In this document: positions 8,273 to 18,442 of the stretch, piece by piece
How the letters are laid out: each line of letters begins with the position of its first letter
Position numbering within the stretch: the stretch's first letter is position 1
NCBI GenBank assembly: GCA_024684815.1
Contig: JAIKWL010000033.1
Span: 1 to 41,833, forward strand
Source of the DNA: Saccharofermentans sp.
Lineage (GTDB): Bacteria; Bacillota; Clostridia; Saccharofermentanales; Saccharofermentanaceae
Length of the DNA stretch: 41,833 bases
Reading direction: 5' to 3'
Notes under the pieces: model-generated
What the model saw: the letters and a program-made list of their open reading frames with translations, nothing else
Databases searched by the model: none
What the model was told of the DNA's origin: nothing
Translations under genes and position numbers: made by a program

Positions 8273-8598
8273 TATATTATAAATCTCATTCCATTTGTCA
8301 TAGCCCGGCAAAGTTAAGAAATATAGCGCTTTGCGTTGGTGATGCGTATCCCAAAATGATAATTACCAAAACATATCAACCCTTTTTTCAAAATTTATAT
8401 ACCAATATAACCCTTTAACAATTCTATAATAGCAGAATAAAGAAACCGCGCTCATTTATAATTTCAGTTGGTTTAAGCCTACCACACTATCAACATTTCT
8501 TATTTTCGTTTTATTTTGCACAAAAACATTTTCGATTTTCCTAACCGTTCCGCTCATCATCTTTAGAATGATATAATTGTTAATATGAGGTGTTGGGA
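8273..8598 (+). other. Gene-free AT-rich stretch before the chaperone cluster
   Basis: I see no convincing gene on either strand. Close to its right end is TATAAT (about 8572-8577), with only a weak -35 match (TTCCGC at about 18 bases). It probably holds the promoter of the J-like gene at 8599. No CIRCE-type inverted repeat (TTAGCACTC / GAGTGCTAA) is visible. Confidence 0.5.
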
Positions 8599-9441
8599 AT
8601 GAACAATCCATGGAAAATATTAAATATCGATCCAACAAGCGACGTAATATTTATTAAACGCGCTTATACATCTCTTGCCCACAATATCAGTCCTGAGGAT
8701 GATCCCGACAGATACCGAGAACTCCACGATGCATATAAGGAAGCACTTTTCCTTGCTAAAAACATAAATGCAGATGACAGTCAGAACCTCGAGTTAAACC
8801 AGGAGCAGGATTCAGAAACTAATCCAGCCGAAGATAATTCAATTTTTGATTTCAGTGAGATCGAACAAGATTATCTTCCGGAAAACAACCTTGCAGAGAC
8901 AATTATAGAAGACATTATTTCATTTAGAGAAAGCAATAATCTGGATACTAAAGACGGTGTAAAACGCCTGCCACTTAGAATGAAAGACCGCCTGTCAATG
9001 ACTCTATTCTATATGTATTTGAAATTGGCAGAGGTAACTGATGATCTTACTATCTGGAAATCCTTTTTCGATGAGCCTCTTATTCAATATTGCTTAGGAT
9101 TTGCTGAATTCAGGGAGACCATACTTCAGCACTTTGATCCGGATTCGCCACACAAAATGAAGATTGCAGAGTTAATTGAAGATTACAACAGAAATAATGA
9201 TACACTGCGACCTTATGTCGAAACTTCATTAGAAGAAAGTGCAAAAATATATAATCGAAAGAAAAAGAAAGTCATTATTCTTCTTGTAATTGCAGGTCTT
9301 TTGTTAACGATAATGCTTGTTTGTTGCATAATTCCGTTCGAAGCCACAGTTATTACAATTTTCGGAATAGCTTTGCCAGTTATCGGATCATTCATATTCC
9401 TGTTTGCGGCTATAATGGCTGCATGTGATAACACTCGATAA
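8599..9441 (+). CDS. Membrane-anchored J-like protein 1, HPD replaced by SPE (280 aa)
   Basis: Residues 2-52 follow the J-domain pattern: PWKILNID, IKRAYTSLAH, then DPDRYRELHDAYKEAL. At the HPD position is SPE (residues 31-33). The middle domain contains IWKSFFDEPLI, shared with the paralogues at 12283 and 13248. The C-terminal 58 residues form two TM segments (about 225-245 and 252-275) after an RKKKK stop. The ATG at 8599 follows GAGG at eight bases; the GTG at 8590 overlaps that site and is not the start. It faces the Hsp70 operon at its 3' side. The likely role is to dock the HscC-like Hsp70 at the membrane; without HPD it may not stimulate ATPase. Confidence 0.85.
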   Translation: MNNPWKILNIDPTSDVIFIKRAYTSLAHNISPEDDPDRYRELHDAYKEALFLAKNINADDSQNLELNQEQDSETNPAEDNSIFDFSEIEQDYLPENNLAETIIEDIISFRESNNLDTKDGVKRLPLRMKDRLSMTLFYMYLKLAEVTDDLTIWKSFFDEPLIQYCLGFAEFRETILQHFDPDSPHKMKIAELIEDYNRNNDTLRPYVETSLEESAKIYNRKKKKVIILLVIAGLLLTIMLVCCIIPFEATVITIFGIALPVIGSFIFLFAAIMAACDNTR

Positions 9442-9462
9442 TCATTGGAACCATAATGATTC

Positions 9463-10548
9463 TTATCCCAAATCAGTCCTAAACTCTATATTATTAGCAA
9501 AACACCATGCATCAAGTTCATTGATCAATTCTGAATATTCTTCATAAACCATGTTTCTGTTATCCTTAGGGGCTTTTCCAAAGCAATATTTATGATCAAT
9601 TCCCGTTCTGTCAGTAAGGATCACTATTCTGAACGCATTGTCTTTGCCCAAAGATGCGTAAGCAGGTGGAGATACAACTATTCTCTCGATTTCCGATGAA
9701 TCATATCTATCATTTTCGAATGATACGGCAGACGAATCTACTAAAACAAAAGAAGGTGTTATAGCAAGAGCTTCTTTTGTTTCTTTCCTTCCATAAGCGA
9801 AAATAACATACCCAAGTAAAGGTCCTAAAAGGCCGAACATAAGAGCGACAGCAATAAAATACATGAAATCCATCAGTATAAATGCAACAACGCAAACGAT
9901 TATTGAGATACCGGTTATAAGAACACTTATCTTGGTTCGTATGCCCATGGATTTGTTATAGGATTGCGAGATCTTGTCTTTGGGAATATCAAACCGTTCT
10001 TCTTTCTCAAATGATTCCCTGATTCCATCTTTTACTTCATCAGGAATTGCAGATCTCTGTTTCGAATTCAGCAAAGAAACAATATCAGAGAATTCTTTCT
10101 CATCAAAGGGAATCGATAATACCCTGATATTTCCGTTCGGCAGAAAAAACTTCAGATATCTCGTGGAATTTATATATGCTCCATTCGAGTAATTCTTGGC
10201 AACATGTGTTCCACAGAATTGTTCGATAAGATATGATTCCTTTTCATCGCCTTTAACATAGGTGAACGACTCTTCATCGATCGTTATTATTGTCTGTTTA
10301 TTCGTAGCTGTTGCAATCGGAGCAATTATCGCACCTATAACAACAGGAATGAGTATTTTTATAAAGAATGGTATTTCTGAAACTATTCCATATGAAACTG
10401 ACAAAAAAACCATAAACAAAAATAAGAGAACTGATGTAGCTAAGAATGTTCCAATGAACATTACAGCTTTATTAATCCTCTTGGTTTGAAAGACTCTTAT
10501 GTTGTCAGACAAACCGGCATCACCGAAATATCCGTCATTATTACTCAT
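9463..10548 (-). CDS. Four-TM protein with two PH-like cytosolic domains (361 aa)
   Basis: The layout is an internal duplication: TM pair (about residues 28-80), a soluble beta-rich domain (about 85-165), a second TM pair (about 205-250), and a second beta-rich domain ending in a helix (about 258-350). Each soluble unit has the strand pattern and closing helix of bacterial PH-like domains; this is a pattern judgement. The ATG at 10546-10548 overlaps the Hsp70 stop (ATGAGTAA), so it is translationally coupled to the Hsp70. GTG at 10560 is an alternative start. Family not named. It is probably the membrane partner of the chaperone. Confidence 0.8.
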   Translation of the reverse strand: MSNNDGYFGDAGLSDNIRVFQTKRINKAVMFIGTFLATSVLLFLFMVFLSVSYGIVSEIPFFIKILIPVVIGAIIAPIATATNKQTIITIDEESFTYVKGDEKESYLIEQFCGTHVAKNYSNGAYINSTRYLKFFLPNGNIRVLSIPFDEKEFSDIVSLLNSKQRSAIPDEVKDGIRESFEKEERFDIPKDKISQSYNKSMGIRTKISVLITGISIIVCVVAFILMDFMYFIAVALMFGLLGPLLGYVIFAYGRKETKEALAITPSFVLVDSSAVSFENDRYDSSEIERIVVSPPAYASLGKDNAFRIVILTDRTGIDHKYCFGKAPKDNRNMVYEEYSELINELDAWCFANNIEFRTDLG

Positions 10549-12247
10549 ATGATCCTTCACTCAATCCGGTATCTATACCTTCCAGCTGATCTAAAAAGCG
10601 TGCAAACCTTTTGGTCATTATTCTAATATCACGGTCATTTCCCTGTGCCAGACAAGTTTTATAACCCATCAAAGCATCAACAATCTGTTGTCTCTCAAAA
10701 CTTAATGTCTCTTCTATTATTCGCTCAGCACGGGCAATAAGCAGCTGGTACTGTTCTTCTTCAGCAGGAGCAAGCCTTAGTTTATCTAATTGCTCTTTGC
10801 ATTTCGCCTGCTGCTCCTCAGTCATAGAATTATTCTCGCTGAGTATAACCTTGGAGTATGTCTTCTTGTCATTTGCCGTAACATCAACAACTAAAAGGCC
10901 ATTGATATCATAAGTAAGTCTGATTGACACTATATGTTCGCCTATTGGAGTTGGTGGGCAGCTCAATCTTAGGTCACCTAATTTGATATTATTAGCCGGA
11001 ACGATACTCTCACCTTGATAAATCGTCACATGAACCTCAGTCTGGTTATCTGCAGCTGCATAATAATCGTGTATTTTACTGGTAGGCAACATTGAATTGC
11101 GCTGAATAATAAAATCCATGATATGATCCTTAGTACGACGATCCTGAACTGCCGTTCCAAGCGAAAAGGGACATATGTCTGTAAGAATAACGTCTTTAAA
11201 GTCCTCGTTACGATTCTTCATTCCGGCAAAAATACCGGCACCCACGCAAATTGCCGTATCAGGGTTGATATCAGAACAAGGTTTACGGCCTGTTAATCTT
11301 TCAATATATGCAGCTATAGTGGGCATCTTGCAGGAACCGCCAACCAGGATAATATCCTTGACCTCCTGAATATTCATATGAGAATCCCGCAACACACGTT
11401 TTATCGGTTCTCCGATTTTCTCAAACACCGTATGAGCTATCTTAATAAGCGTATTATTATCAAGTGAAAGTGAATAACTGTTATCATTGATATTGACTGA
11501 CATTATGCTCAAAGGAGTTTCAGACAATGCAATCTTACAGGCTTCTGCAGTTTTATAAATAGACGCCTTCTGCTCAGGAGACAACAGTGCCTCATCAAGG
11601 TTATTCTCTTTCAGGAAGTGTGAATATATAGCCTCGTTAATGTCTTTACCGCCCAACTGATTATTGCCTGCAACCGCCAGGATCTCCATAATACTGTCGA
11701 ACGAATCGATCATGGAAACATCAAGTGTTCCGCCACCGAAATCGATAACCATATATGTGCCGTCTTCAAATCCGTGTTTCTGCATGTAGGCAAGTGCAGC
11801 TGCAGATGGCTCGTTTATCAGACGTTCAACTTTAAGACCGGACATCTCTGCAGCCTGCTTTGTCGCGTTTCGACGACAATCATCAAAATATGCAGGAACA
11901 CTGATTACGGCCTCAGTTATTTCTTCTCCAAGGAACTTTTCCGCATCTTCCTTTATCTTTTTCAAAACAAGAGAAGATAACTGCTCAGATGTAAAACTGT
12001 TTTTTCCTATCTGATATACTTTTTTTGTGCCAAGAGTACGCTTAAATTCAGACGCAGTCTTTTCAGGATGAGAAATCAATCGTTCTTTGGCCACTTCACC
12101 GACTAAGATGTTGTTATTTTCATCAACACCGACAACTGAAGGAGTAAACGTATTCCCCAGTGTATTTTTAATTATGAGTGGAGAACTGTTTTTCCACACG
12201 CACGCCAAACTGTTCGTTGTGCCAAGATCTATTCCAATAATCGCCAT
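10541..12247 (-). CDS. HscC-like Hsp70 chaperone (568 aa)
   Basis: An ATP-dependent Hsp70. The nucleotide-binding domain (about 1-350) has the phosphate-1 loop GIDLGTTNS, NEPSAAALAY, the phosphate-2 loop VIDFGGGTLDVS, and the adenosine motif ILVGGSCKMP. A substrate-binding beta domain follows (about 365-470). Only a short helical tail comes after it, and there is no EEVD-type or Gly-rich end. At 568 aa it is shorter than DnaK (about 610-640) and close to E. coli HscC (about 556). An AGGAG site lies nine bases before the ATG. It is second in a minus-strand operon: J-like 2, Hsp70, PH-like membrane protein. No grpE is present, so a housekeeping GrpE is presumably used, if any. Confidence 0.93.
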   Translation of the reverse strand: MAIIGIDLGTTNSLACVWKNSSPLIIKNTLGNTFTPSVVGVDENNNILVGEVAKERLISHPEKTASEFKRTLGTKKVYQIGKNSFTSEQLSSLVLKKIKEDAEKFLGEEITEAVISVPAYFDDCRRNATKQAAEMSGLKVERLINEPSAAALAYMQKHGFEDGTYMVIDFGGGTLDVSMIDSFDSIMEILAVAGNNQLGGKDINEAIYSHFLKENNLDEALLSPEQKASIYKTAEACKIALSETPLSIMSVNINDNSYSLSLDNNTLIKIAHTVFEKIGEPIKRVLRDSHMNIQEVKDIILVGGSCKMPTIAAYIERLTGRKPCSDINPDTAICVGAGIFAGMKNRNEDFKDVILTDICPFSLGTAVQDRRTKDHIMDFIIQRNSMLPTSKIHDYYAAADNQTEVHVTIYQGESIVPANNIKLGDLRLSCPPTPIGEHIVSIRLTYDINGLLVVDVTANDKKTYSKVILSENNSMTEEQQAKCKEQLDKLRLAPAEEEQYQLLIARAERIIEETLSFERQQIVDALMGYKTCLAQGNDRDIRIMTKRFARFLDQLEGIDTGLSEGSYE

Positions 12248-12282
12248 TTTCTATAACTCCTATCCTGCTAAATCATTATATA

Positions 12283-13152
12283 TTATTTAGCTTTATTCCT
12301 GTTATGTTTCTTAAATCCGCATACAAGACCGTTCTTTACGGATATTATTATCGCAGCAATAAAAACACCCGATGTAGACACTGCAATTAATGAACAACCC
12401 ACAATAGCATTTATATTCTGATCGCCAAACATGTCGGTTGCAAATACAATCATGCATCCAAGAAAACAAGCAACACCGATAATAATCATGATTACAATCA
12501 GCAAATCTCTTTTTGTTGTGTTCTTTTGTTCACCACAGTCATTATATTGAGAATAGTTAACATTAAGTGGTAAATGCCTCTCGCGGATTATCTCATTTAT
12601 CCTTACACCGTGATCAGATCCTTTCGGGAAGTAACATATGACCCGGTTACAAAACCCGTGTTGCCAGGCATACATGATCAAGGGTTCGTCAAAAAAATCA
12701 TTCCAGACATTTGCATCGTTAGATATTTGAGCAAGTCTGGCATACATCTTAAACAAAGTCTCAGCCAAATTCATTTTTATGTTATGAGGTATATTACTGA
12801 GATCCTTAACTGAACCAAGATTATTATTTTCTTTGAAGATCAGTATATCATCGGCCATTATTTCAACCAGTGTTCCCTGCAATACAGAATCATCTAACAA
12901 TTGACTGAAATCATACGTATCATAAGATTCCTTTGGATGTTCTTCCGAAATAGCACAGGAATCAGACAAACCTGAAATAACAATGCTTTTATTGGCGTAT
13001 GCTAGAGCCATTTTATATGCTTCATGCAATTTGCGGAATCTATCCGGATCGTCTTCCGGATTAACTTCATGTGCAAGCTTCGTATAAGCCCGTTTTATCG
13101 CTTGTACGTCATCGGTAGGTTCTATGCCAAGAATTATCCAACACAATTGCAT
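12283..13152 (-). CDS. Membrane-anchored J-like protein 2, HPD replaced by NPE (289 aa)
   Basis: The J-like domain (residues 3-52) reads WIILGIEP, IKRAYTKLAH, then DPDRFRKLHEAYKMAL, with NPE at residues 31-33 where HPD is expected. The middle domain has a TYDFSQ segment and VWNDFFDEPLI. Two C-terminal TM segments (about 217-239 and 248-272) are followed by a basic tail (KKHNRNK). It is the first gene of the Hsp70 operon; its stop is 35 bases before the Hsp70 start. A TATAAT lies upstream in the 95-bp divergent region shared with J-like 3. Likely anchors the Hsp70. Confidence 0.87.
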   Translation of the reverse strand: MQLCWIILGIEPTDDVQAIKRAYTKLAHEVNPEDDPDRFRKLHEAYKMALAYANKSIVISGLSDSCAISEEHPKESYDTYDFSQLLDDSVLQGTLVEIMADDILIFKENNNLGSVKDLSNIPHNIKMNLAETLFKMYARLAQISNDANVWNDFFDEPLIMYAWQHGFCNRVICYFPKGSDHGVRINEIIRERHLPLNVNYSQYNDCGEQKNTTKRDLLIVIMIIIGVACFLGCMIVFATDMFGDQNINAIVGCSLIAVSTSGVFIAAIIISVKNGLVCGFKKHNRNKAK

Positions 13153-13247
13153 GATTCTCTTTACCTCAACCAGTTGATTATAGCATCATGACAAAGCGAT
13201 AAAAATAACGCATGTGATAAAATAAACACAATTATACGGGGCGAGTT

Positions 13248-14297
13248 ATGGCTGAAAATCTTTGGTTCTGGAACATTTTAGGTATTGAGCCAACTAAAGA
13301 CAAGACTGTTATCAAACGGGCTTTCTCTAAACTTGCGCATGAGAAGAATCCTGAGGATGATCCAGAAGGTTATGCCAAGCTTCATGATGCATACAAAGAA
13401 GCACTTAGCTATGCATCCGAAAAAATCGTTATCGTTTCAGAAAATGGAAATACTGTTAAAGAAAATCAGTCTGCATATGATTTTTCTTCTGTCAATGATG
13501 ATAACCGACCTCTTCTGATGACTATAGCCGGTCTGACGGAAGAGATTCGGCGGTTTAAGATAAAAAACAACGTATATACATATGAAAACTTGTTCCAAAA
13601 ACCTGTATCTGAACTTCATGAAATAACAATTTCGTTGTTCAAATTATACGCAGCACTTGCCTTTAAGACCGATAACATGAATGTTTGGACTGCTTTCTTT
13701 AACGAGCCCCTGATTACAATTGTTCTGGAAGAACCTGATCTTCGCTCTTTCTTGATAGATTACTTCCCCGAAGGCGATGTTAACCGAGCAACAATTGCAG
13801 GCTTTATCAGTTCATATGAAGATAATCTCACACAAAAAATCGAGAAAGAAAAGCTTGAAAAAGAAAGAAAAATAGAAGAAGAGCAGGCCTTACAAAAGAA
13901 ACAAGGCATATGGATATATTTAGCTGTTGCATCCACCATACTATTTATAGTTTTGATTACCATTCCATCTGATATAAATCTCCCGGAATCGCAAATAATA
14001 ACCATAGGATGCATGATATTATCATTTGGTTTGAGTTGTCTGTCCAGACATCTGAAAATATACGCTAAACGTGAAAAATCTCGCAAGAAGATCATCCTAT
14101 CTCGAATTCTAATAGTTGCCGTCATAATTTCAATTTCTATTGGATGGATTTCTTTCTTTTCTGAAAACACCTCAGATGGCATCTATACATATGTATCTTT
14201 GGCTTGTTGTTATATGTTTACAGCAATTAGTATTATTACCGTATTATTGGATTCAAATCCGATTGAACGTATTAAGCGGGCATTACATGGTAAATAA
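13248..14297 (+). CDS. Membrane-anchored J-like protein 3, four TM, NPE for HPD (349 aa)
   Basis: The J-like domain (residues 6-55) reads WNILGIEP, IKRAFSKLAH, then DPEGYAKLHDAYKEAL, with NPE at 34-36. The middle domain has AYDFSS and VWTAFFNEPLI. A charged helix rich in Lys and Glu (about 198-220) leads to four predicted TM segments (about 222-345), twice the number in its paralogues. GGGGCGAG precedes the ATG. It is transcribed divergently from the Hsp70 operon across 95 bp. Its last 15 bases overlap the convergent gene at 14283. Confidence 0.86.
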   Translation: MAENLWFWNILGIEPTKDKTVIKRAFSKLAHEKNPEDDPEGYAKLHDAYKEALSYASEKIVIVSENGNTVKENQSAYDFSSVNDDNRPLLMTIAGLTEEIRRFKIKNNVYTYENLFQKPVSELHEITISLFKLYAALAFKTDNMNVWTAFFNEPLITIVLEEPDLRSFLIDYFPEGDVNRATIAGFISSYEDNLTQKIEKEKLEKERKIEEEQALQKKQGIWIYLAVASTILFIVLITIPSDINLPESQIITIGCMILSFGLSCLSRHLKIYAKREKSRKKIILSRILIVAVIISISIGWISFFSENTSDGIYTYVSLACCYMFTAISIITVLLDSNPIERIKRALHGK

Positions 14298-15570: not shown

Positions 15571-15972
15571 TTACATCTTAACTCTGTCAAAAACTGTTTG
15601 AATATCTTCTTTTGCCCCTTCAAATTTGGGCCAGGCATCTAATCCATCATCATGATTCCTTGGAACAATGTGAATATGAAGATGCGGGACAGATTGACCT
15701 GCACTTTCATCACTGGCATTAAGTAGATTAACACCTTCGTATCCGCATTTCTCTGTAAGATGATTTGCTATGGTCTTAACCGTCTTCATGACTGCACATA
15801 TAGTCTCTTTATCACAATCCAAAACATTTTTGAAATGCTTCTTTGGTACGACCAATATATGTCCGTCCACATCTTTTGCAATATCCATAAACGCAAGCGT
15901 CAGCTCATCTTCGTATACCTTCATACACGGGATTTCTCCAGATGCGATCCTACAAAAAACGCATTCATTCAT
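15571..15972 (-). CDS. HIT-family nucleotide hydrolase/transferase-like protein (133 aa)
   Basis: A typical prokaryotic HIT protein. It starts MNECVFCRIASGEIPC (a zinc-binding Cys pair), has GHILVVPKKHF, and carries the histidine triad HLHIHIVP with SAGQSVPH before it. HIT proteins hydrolyse nucleoside phosphoramidates or dinucleotides in the cytosol. The ATG at 15970-15972 follows GAGGTG at six bases and gives the usual family start. A longer start at 16035 has AAGGAG upstream and would add 21 residues. Confidence 0.93.
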   Translation of the reverse strand: MNECVFCRIASGEIPCMKVYEDELTLAFMDIAKDVDGHILVVPKKHFKNVLDCDKETICAVMKTVKTIANHLTEKCGYEGVNLLNASDESAGQSVPHLHIHIVPRNHDDGLDAWPKFEGAKEDIQTVFDRVKM

Positions 15973-16117
15973 GTTATTCACCTCTGTAAACTCCGATTTG
16001 TCACCGTATATATAACTGTCTATATAACTCACCATCAAGTTCTAACTCCTTGGTCTGTTATATTCAAGATTATTTCCACCACAGTAAATAGCCTGTCTGT
16101 TTTTGTTACAGCGTTCT

Positions 16118-17342: not shown

Positions 17343-17804
17343 TTAGCAATTCAGCCGGTCCTTTAGCCAAATGAAAACGGTTTCTCTATCTTTGTCAGTT
17401 ATTTCTCCGTCCTTTTTTACCGCATAATGATGTCCAAACTCGCTGTCAATATAAGCGTGTCCATTCACCATCACCGGTTCATCATATCTTGGCCGGACAT
17501 GAATATGAAGATGCGGATCAGGTTCTGATTCTTTATAAAAGCTATTCATCAAACAACTCCAATTACACAAAGTTGCTCCTAAAACCATCTTTAAGCAGGT
17601 CTCCACTTTACAAATAAGCTTGTGAAGCTCTTCCCACTCATCATCTGTCAGCTCCGACATGGAACCACAGTGACGTTTCAAAACCAATATACATCGTCCG
17701 ATATAATCCTGCTCATACGAAAGGAAAACAGACCAGAATACAGTCTCGTATAACTGATAACGTTTATCTTCTTCAGTTAGATTGCACCAAGAACAATTCT
17801 CCAA
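17343..17804 (-). CDS. Second HIT-like protein (153 aa)
   Basis: A TTG start (17802-17804) follows AGG at seven bases; no better ATG exists. An N-terminal CSWC pair parallels the zinc pair of HIT proteins. CILVLKRHCGSMSELTDDEW follows, and the triad region is HLHIHVRP near residue 100. It is more diverged from typical HIT proteins than the 15571 gene and has a C-terminal extension. The enzyme role is inferred from the intact triad. Confidence 0.8.
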   Translation of the reverse strand: MENCSWCNLTEEDKRYQLYETVFWSVFLSYEQDYIGRCILVLKRHCGSMSELTDDEWEELHKLICKVETCLKMVLGATLCNWSCLMNSFYKESEPDPHLHIHVRPRYDEPVMVNGHAYIDSEFGHHYAVKKDGEITDKDRETVFIWLKDRLNC

Positions 17805-18074: not shown

Positions 18075-18227
18075 TCATTTTTGCACCCAAAATAAAATGC
18101 GGAATCTTGTAGAGTCAGAATCGTCATCACGATCTCTTTTCGTGCTCTCAGTTTTAGTGCAGGAACAAGCACCAAACAACATAGATAAAACGAGTATCCA
18201 TGTACAAATCTTCGAACTTCTCTTCAT
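18075..18227 (-). CDS. Short or truncated lipoprotein (50 aa)
   Basis: The protein starts MKRSSKICTWILVLSMLFGA and has a lipobox (LFGA-C) at residue 21, so it would be cleaved by signal peptidase II and anchored at the outer face of the membrane. After a charged DRDDDSDS linker it ends abruptly at residue 50. GGGGG precedes the ATG. Only the export signal and linker remain; the functional domain is missing, so it is probably a truncated gene. Confidence 0.65.
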   Translation of the reverse strand: MKRSSKICTWILVLSMLFGACSCTKTESTKRDRDDDSDSTRFRILFWVQK

Positions 18228-18349
18228 ATATTTCCCCCATCTCATATGTAAAGAACTTATTTATAATTTTACCAAATTTGTCAAAGATTCTTAAACAGCA
18301 AATATTGTATTTATGCATTTCTGTCAGATATCAGACTTCTTTCGATTTT

Positions 18350-18442
18350 ATGCTGAGGCATACGTTTGCAACAAGAATGAGAGAAGCCGGAGCTGACATT
18401 AAGGCTACAGCAGACATTATGGGACATACAGAGTCGAATTAA
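18350..18442 (+). pseudogene. C-terminal remnant of a tyrosine recombinase/integrase
   Basis: The 30-codon frame reads MLRHTFATRMREAGADIKAT and continues to ADIMGHTESN. This is the HxxR box of XerC/XerD-type recombinases (LRHTFATR) followed by the GH box. The catalytic tyrosine that should follow is lost, as is the whole N-terminal part. It lies 63 bases from tRNA-Tyr, which fits an integrase of an element that used this tRNA region. Confidence 0.8.

Follow-up and report, generated by a model that had tools for sequence, protein, structure and literature searches.

An HscC-type Hsp70 of Saccharofermentans sp. flanked by three predicted membrane J proteins without the HPD histidine

The locus described here lies on contig JAIKWL010000033.1 of the Saccharofermentans sp. 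assembly GCA_024684815.1, of which the whole 41,833-nucleotide stretch was analysed and is referred to as the window. Five open reading frames (ORFs) are arranged in the order J1 (+), PH-like gene (-), hscC (-), J2 (-) and J3 (+). The central gene codes for an HscC-type Hsp70 of 568 aa (10541-12247, minus strand; ORF list, bit scores and alignment). It is preceded at a distance of 35 nt by J2 (12283-13152, minus strand; ORF list and structure model), which encodes a J-domain protein with a helical middle domain and predicted transmembrane (TM) helices; its codons Asn31-Pro32-Glu33, at 13054-13062 on the minus strand, occupy the position of the HPD tripeptide. J3 (13248-14297, plus strand; ORF list, hydropathy and tree) is divergent from J2 and codes for a J-domain protein with the motif NPE and four predicted TM segments. 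On the other side lies J1 (8599-9441, plus strand; ORF list, alignment, hydropathy and tree), a gene for a J-domain protein with the motif SPE and two predicted TM segments, whose listed ORF begins at an upstream GTG at 8590. Between J1 and hscC, the gene of a PH-like protein with four predicted TM segments (9463-10560, minus strand; ORF list) overlaps the end of hscC, and J2, hscC and the PH-like gene are co-directional. A short HscC-like Hsp70 amid three J-like proteins, all with C-terminal TM segments, was the core of the original prediction, and both the ORFs and hydropathy agree with it. HscC with membrane J partners is a known kind of system, present here as a multi-anchor variant. What had been overlooked is the absence of HPD from all three J domains, and the remodelled J motif across the HscC family is the point worth testing.

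Sequence comparison assigned the window Hsp70 to the HscC subfamily. It scored 363 bits against E. coli HscC and 268 bits against E. coli DnaK, and its length fits the 550-580 aa given for the subfamily (PMC8215388). As marks of HscC, the same source lists a deletion of the GrpE signature, a deletion in lid helix B and an L1,2 insertion (PMC8215388). In an alignment with approximate borders, the window HscC and E. coli HscC both lacked the region of the GrpE signature and a portion of the lid, and both carried the L1,2 insertion. These marks were found neither in the window genome's own DnaK (L002) nor in the L064 DnaK. Proteins of the HscC subfamily are expected to work without GrpE and to release nucleotide fast. 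Two further deletions described for HscC, in the nucleotide-binding domain near DnaK residues 76-101 and in the D211 loop (PMC8215388), also occur in the window protein, but they do not discriminate here because the L002 and L064 DnaK proteins have both. E. coli HscC has cadmium and UV phenotypes, whose mechanism is not understood (PMC8215388). The DnaK gene of the window genome adjoins an HPD-type dnaJ (L195). The assembly, with a contamination of 5.24%, holds two such DnaK-DnaJ gene pairs, L195 on contig C58 and L196 on C69; the second may stem from a second strain or be a true duplicate.

The link between J-like proteins and HscC is real. HscC was detected at E <= 1e-100 in 26 of 148 genomes (27 genes, window genome included), and 27 genomes had the J-like protein at E <= 1e-6, namely all 26 HscC genomes and G003, in which a partial Hsp70 adjoins the J-like gene at a contig end (L055). 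The predicted family pairing of the HscC/DjlB-DjlC type is thus borne out, J-like genes accompanying HscC in 26/26 cases. To avoid choosing by motif, motif-blind samples were started from HscC under strict E-value limits: the one just described (1e-100), 397 other Bacillota genomes (1e-105), and 299 genomes of the Sphingomonas phylum (1e-115; 13 genes), the centre genome of which, reading NPE, was excluded since it had come from a motif search. Three to four candidates per genome were scored in the latter two samples. Across the motif-blind set, 46 of 47 HscC genes, the window gene included, had a J-domain protein within 3.5 kb; for the HscC of L165, no J protein was found within 15 kb. Eleven of 80 named J loci had no Hsp70 within 3.5 kb. 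The pair was also seen on an unverified phage-labelled contig from human faeces (L233:6980-10929), where HscC (57% identical) is followed by two NPE J proteins, and on a Pseudomonas oryzihabitans plasmid (L234:1-9347), where HscC and an RPD J protein lie downstream of a copper-resistance gene set. The position of the plasmid pair fits a metal-linked role but does not prove it.

At the HPD position, J1 reads SPE and J2 and J3 read NPE, and the histidine is absent in all three. Going by these letters, the lack of HPD makes them type IV J proteins; the HPE of DjlB and DjlC is absent too. The HPD tripeptide is considered indispensable to J domains (PMC8215388, PMC13254874). The HPE of DjlB/DjlC is seemingly its sole tolerated replacement, other variants being presumably nonfunctional, and a designed sequence lacking HPD acted as a J domain (PMC13254874). 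Motif loss extends across the partners of HscC. For the 27 HscC genes of genus and family, the nearest J protein read NPE in 16, SPE in 5, HPE in 2, GPE in 2, DKE in 1 and PPE in 1. The 8 genes of the Bacillota sample gave HPE 4, NPE 2, NNN 1 and no J protein 1, and the Sphingomonas-phylum sample gave RPD 7 and one each of HPE, GPE, DQQ, DVE and DQV. Taken together, HPD was read in 0/46 and the histidine was kept in 7/46.

A larger set of 108 distinct HscC genes, 107 of them with a J neighbour, displayed NPE 53, HPE 23, SPE 12, RPD 7, GPE 3, nine other motifs once each and HPD 0; these counts are biased because 68 of the 108 genes come from the 80 named J loci, which were found via the patterns [NS]PE or W-x-[IV]LGI. 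The named loci are partly the same contigs as the loci with G handles; duplicate Hsp70 sequences entered the count a single time, and the set excludes Hsp70 frames of <=540 aa as well as any that scored within 20 bits of DnaK. L194 was the only HscC locus in which a second J protein within 3.5 kb read HPD. Three further HscC loci, from a phage-labelled record and two plasmids, read NPE, NPE, DPQ and RPD. On a quick tree of HscC, the histidine changed at least nine times.

As a control, Pfam DnaJ matches of the window genome (8) and of ten other HscC genomes (37) were read. Loci were available for 38 of these, leaving 7/45 unread, and two (L202, L228) gave no J domain, so that 36 readings remained. 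All 23 readable J domains outside the HscC-linked family carried HPD, and it was found in 0/13 HscC-type readings, some of which repeat one gene. Three residues ahead of the motif, J1, J2 and J3 have a histidine in common (LAH-x-x-[NS]PE; His28 of J2); E. coli DnaJ carries Met there, and many other HscC partners lack this histidine. Among the titles and abstract openings listed for HscC, DjlB/DjlC and J-protein motifs, none reports a general loss of HPD in HscC partners; Barriot et al. 2020 (J Mol Biol) may have noted it.

The partner Hsp70 retains the docking-site Arg, Asp and Pro. In the DnaK-DnaJ complex, the motif His contacts the carbonyl of linker residue L391, the Pro contacts P419, and the Asp contacts R167 and Q378 (PMC8215388). 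Among the 108 HscC genes, R167 is kept in 104 and P419 and D393 in all 108. In contrast, position 392, a Leu in DnaK, is Thr in 105, position 477 is Thr or Ser in 107, and Q378 is kept in 51. The pocket therefore persists, while linker and rim have changed, and the linker change (Thr for Leu392) might stand in for the His contact. No HscC site was seen to change together with the motif histidine in a comparison of only six supported independent pairs, which gives little power; the only hint of co-change was Val390, which went with a non-His residue in 3.3 of 6 pairs on average and never the opposite way.

The J proteins of the window are 280-349 aa long, and J2 shares 37% identity with J1 and 33% with J3. 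They display the helical-hairpin J fold, and the J profile matches E. coli DjlB over 58 columns with a probability of 98.3. In the model of J2, a helical middle domain comprises residues 88-193. Hydropathy predicts two TM segments in J2, as in J1, and every segment of the three proteins is C-terminal. By simple hydropathy, 86 of 119 J frames near HscC and clear of locus ends have a TM segment, located in the C-terminal half in 80 of the 86. Judged from these predictions, anchoring of HscC-neighbouring J proteins is common, not universal.

A tree built from 34 J proteins placed J3 among J3-type proteins (100/98) and paired J1 with an orphan J-like gene of G077 (99/95), whose 20.7-kb locus (L077) contains no Hsp70. 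In G047, G025, G078 and G077, too, hscC is accompanied by a J2-type gene and a J3-type gene with four TM segments, a layout that is conserved in the genus. The original prediction had set the extra paralogue outside the E. coli precedent; it does differ from E. coli, but the layout is not peculiar to the window. G077 combines five J-like genes with a single HscC match, and the window genome harbors a fourth HscC-type J-like gene on contig C68 (L201 / L160:9808-10620), which reads DPR and in whose locus no Hsp70 was found. Several membrane J proteins therefore probably share one HscC. A second, weak J match was noted on the same contig (C68:54617). In relatives, five J-like gene pairs had dN/dS values of 0.26-0.34, and the three HscC pairs beside those J genes had values of 0.08-0.14. 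The J proteins are therefore kept by purifying selection and evolve faster than their Hsp70.

We consider it likely that a single HscC is recruited to the membrane and triggered there by J2, J3 and probably J1, via a remodelled, largely histidine-free J motif. The locus would then be a dedicated HscC chaperone system in which one HscC is served by several J proteins, with J2 and J3 as core, J1 as a probable member and perhaps the fourth J protein elsewhere in the genome. The C-terminal TM segments would insert into the membrane and anchor the J proteins, leaving the J domain at the N-terminal end, and each anchored J protein would draw HscC to the membrane. There, the J domain would trigger ATP hydrolysis by HscC with Asn- or Ser-Pro-Glu in place of His-Pro-Asp. 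The helical middle domain of each J protein may pick the clients, probably cytosolic parts of membrane proteins. Such a mechanism would extend the case of E. coli, in which DjlC is membrane-inserted and stimulates HscC, and membrane proteins were suggested as clients (PMC8215388).

The loss of HPD could also point to pseudo-J proteins (type IV, Pam16-like); the J-like proteins would then retain HscC at the membrane or obstruct other J proteins and give no trigger for ATP hydrolysis. We regard this as unlikely, although several motifs would suit it: a few partners read DQQ, DQV or NNN, the paralogue on C68 in the same genome reads DPR, and the J-like gene beside hscC in G080 (L145) reads DKE, the letters given for yeast Pam16 (PMC13254874). 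The HscC loci offer such proteins almost no HPD partner to regulate: the nearest J protein read HPD in 0/107 HscC loci and a second HPD protein was nearby only in L194, although HscC might still draw on HPD proteins encoded elsewhere in the same genome. Furthermore, DjlC of E. coli belongs to the same family and is an activator, though one with HPE (PMC8215388). Recruitment and triggering by the membrane J proteins remains our preferred explanation.

That the PH-like four-TM protein works as a third component, its synthesis translationally coupled to that of HscC, appears very improbable. The coupling noted in the original prediction is visible in the sequence as an ATG/stop overlap: the in-frame ATG at 10548 lies inside the end of hscC (ATGAGTAA), giving an overlap of 8 nt, or of 20 nt counted from the GTG at 10560. 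PH-like proteins occur in 21 of 148 genomes, that is in 7/26 HscC genomes and 14/122 others, and G013 has a weak match (E 1e-6) approx. 5 kb from hscC. The predicted conservation beside this Hsp70 nevertheless fails, as the gene adjoins hscC only in the window. The other 25 PH-like matches had no Hsp70 in their flanks (up to 1.5 kb), and neither the 80 named J loci (flanks up to 10 kb, often shorter) nor the 17 other HscC loci that were drawn contained a PH-like gene. The nearest relative, with 77% identity, belongs to G023, a genome with no HscC match. Other relatives lie either between a competence-protein gene and, after an unknown gene, the gene of DNA polymerase III delta, or in the order amylase/small TM protein/PH-like/DUF711/ACT. 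The gene is therefore a local neighbour and not a conserved part of the system. Least probable of all is that the cluster forms a defence or toxin-immunity module of a genomic island. Its setting would suit such a module: GC content is 0.35-0.41 from 1 to 18 kb and 0.41-0.49 beyond, and the low-GC region ends at a C-terminal remnant of a phage integrase beside tRNA-Tyr and tRNA-Met genes (18200-18442, plus strand), which is context outside the chaperone system and probably marks an island border. Among the neighbours searched, DUF1963 and DUF7919, which would suit the module too, were the only ones to score clearly, and DUF4259 was weak. The immunity-gene island of the original prediction is borne out in part. 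The proposed defence role found no backing, since PADLOC gave best scores of only 13-16 bits for the five proteins and ten neighbours. Moreover, in the 17 other HscC loci that were drawn, any neighbour family is common to just a few loci or to close relatives.

Some observations concern the neighbours themselves. Hydropathy places the four TM segments of the PH-like protein at starts 35, 65, 211 and 235. This spacing and a repeated order of strands and helices in a poor model (pLDDT 51.1) favor the predicted duplication, but comparing the two halves by BLASTP yielded nothing significant (E 1.4). No PH family was among the Pfam matches at E <= 1, and the PH fold stays putative. The four-TM PH-like family is genus-wide and occurs in two repeated gene orders (L153, L154, L155, L156, L157, L158, L161). 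Two ORFs of the window (15571-16038, 17343-17804) have HxHxH motifs that by eye resemble HIT-family proteins.

Beyond the window, there is in our estimate an even chance that the HscC family as a whole is triggered by J domains able to act without the histidine of HPD, with NPE, SPE, RPD and GPE as an alternative docking code and the HPE of E. coli as the exception. Such a code may keep HscC from cross-talk with DnaK and DnaJ. If this holds, many bacterial proteins that one would file as inactive type IV J proteins would be active co-chaperones. Triggering would be more flexible than believed if dozens of dedicated Hsp70-J pairs work in the histidine's absence, and HscC would provide natural test variants. 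This poorly understood chaperone system would also gain a sequence mark, by which a set of J-like membrane proteins would become candidate HscC partners.

Compared with known systems, the locus most resembles HscC-DjlB/DjlC of E. coli, which likewise combines an HscC-type Hsp70 with adjoining, C-terminally anchored proteins that have an N-terminal J domain and an altered HPD motif, HPE as read from the sequence. The window motifs NPE and SPE differ from it in having lost the histidine. The J proteins of the window are also shorter than DjlB and DjlC (475-483 aa) and have two or four predicted TM segments instead of one, and hscC is flanked by three J genes, unlike in E. coli. In E. coli (L060:712-5664), djlB as well as djlC is preceded by a DUF1266 gene (ybeR, ybeU); no DUF1266 match was found among the window neighbours searched. 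The class A system DnaK-DnaJ, which the same genome has (L195, L196), is alike in pairing an Hsp70 with a J-domain partner, but it keeps HPD, and two parts of the genome's own DnaK, the region of the GrpE signature and a portion of the lid, are missing from the window HscC. Pam16-type pseudo-J proteins (type IV) share the J fold, the altered HPD and the place at the membrane. In contrast to the J proteins beside HscC, which have an HPD partner only in L194, Pam16 partners the HPD protein Pam18 (PMC13254874).

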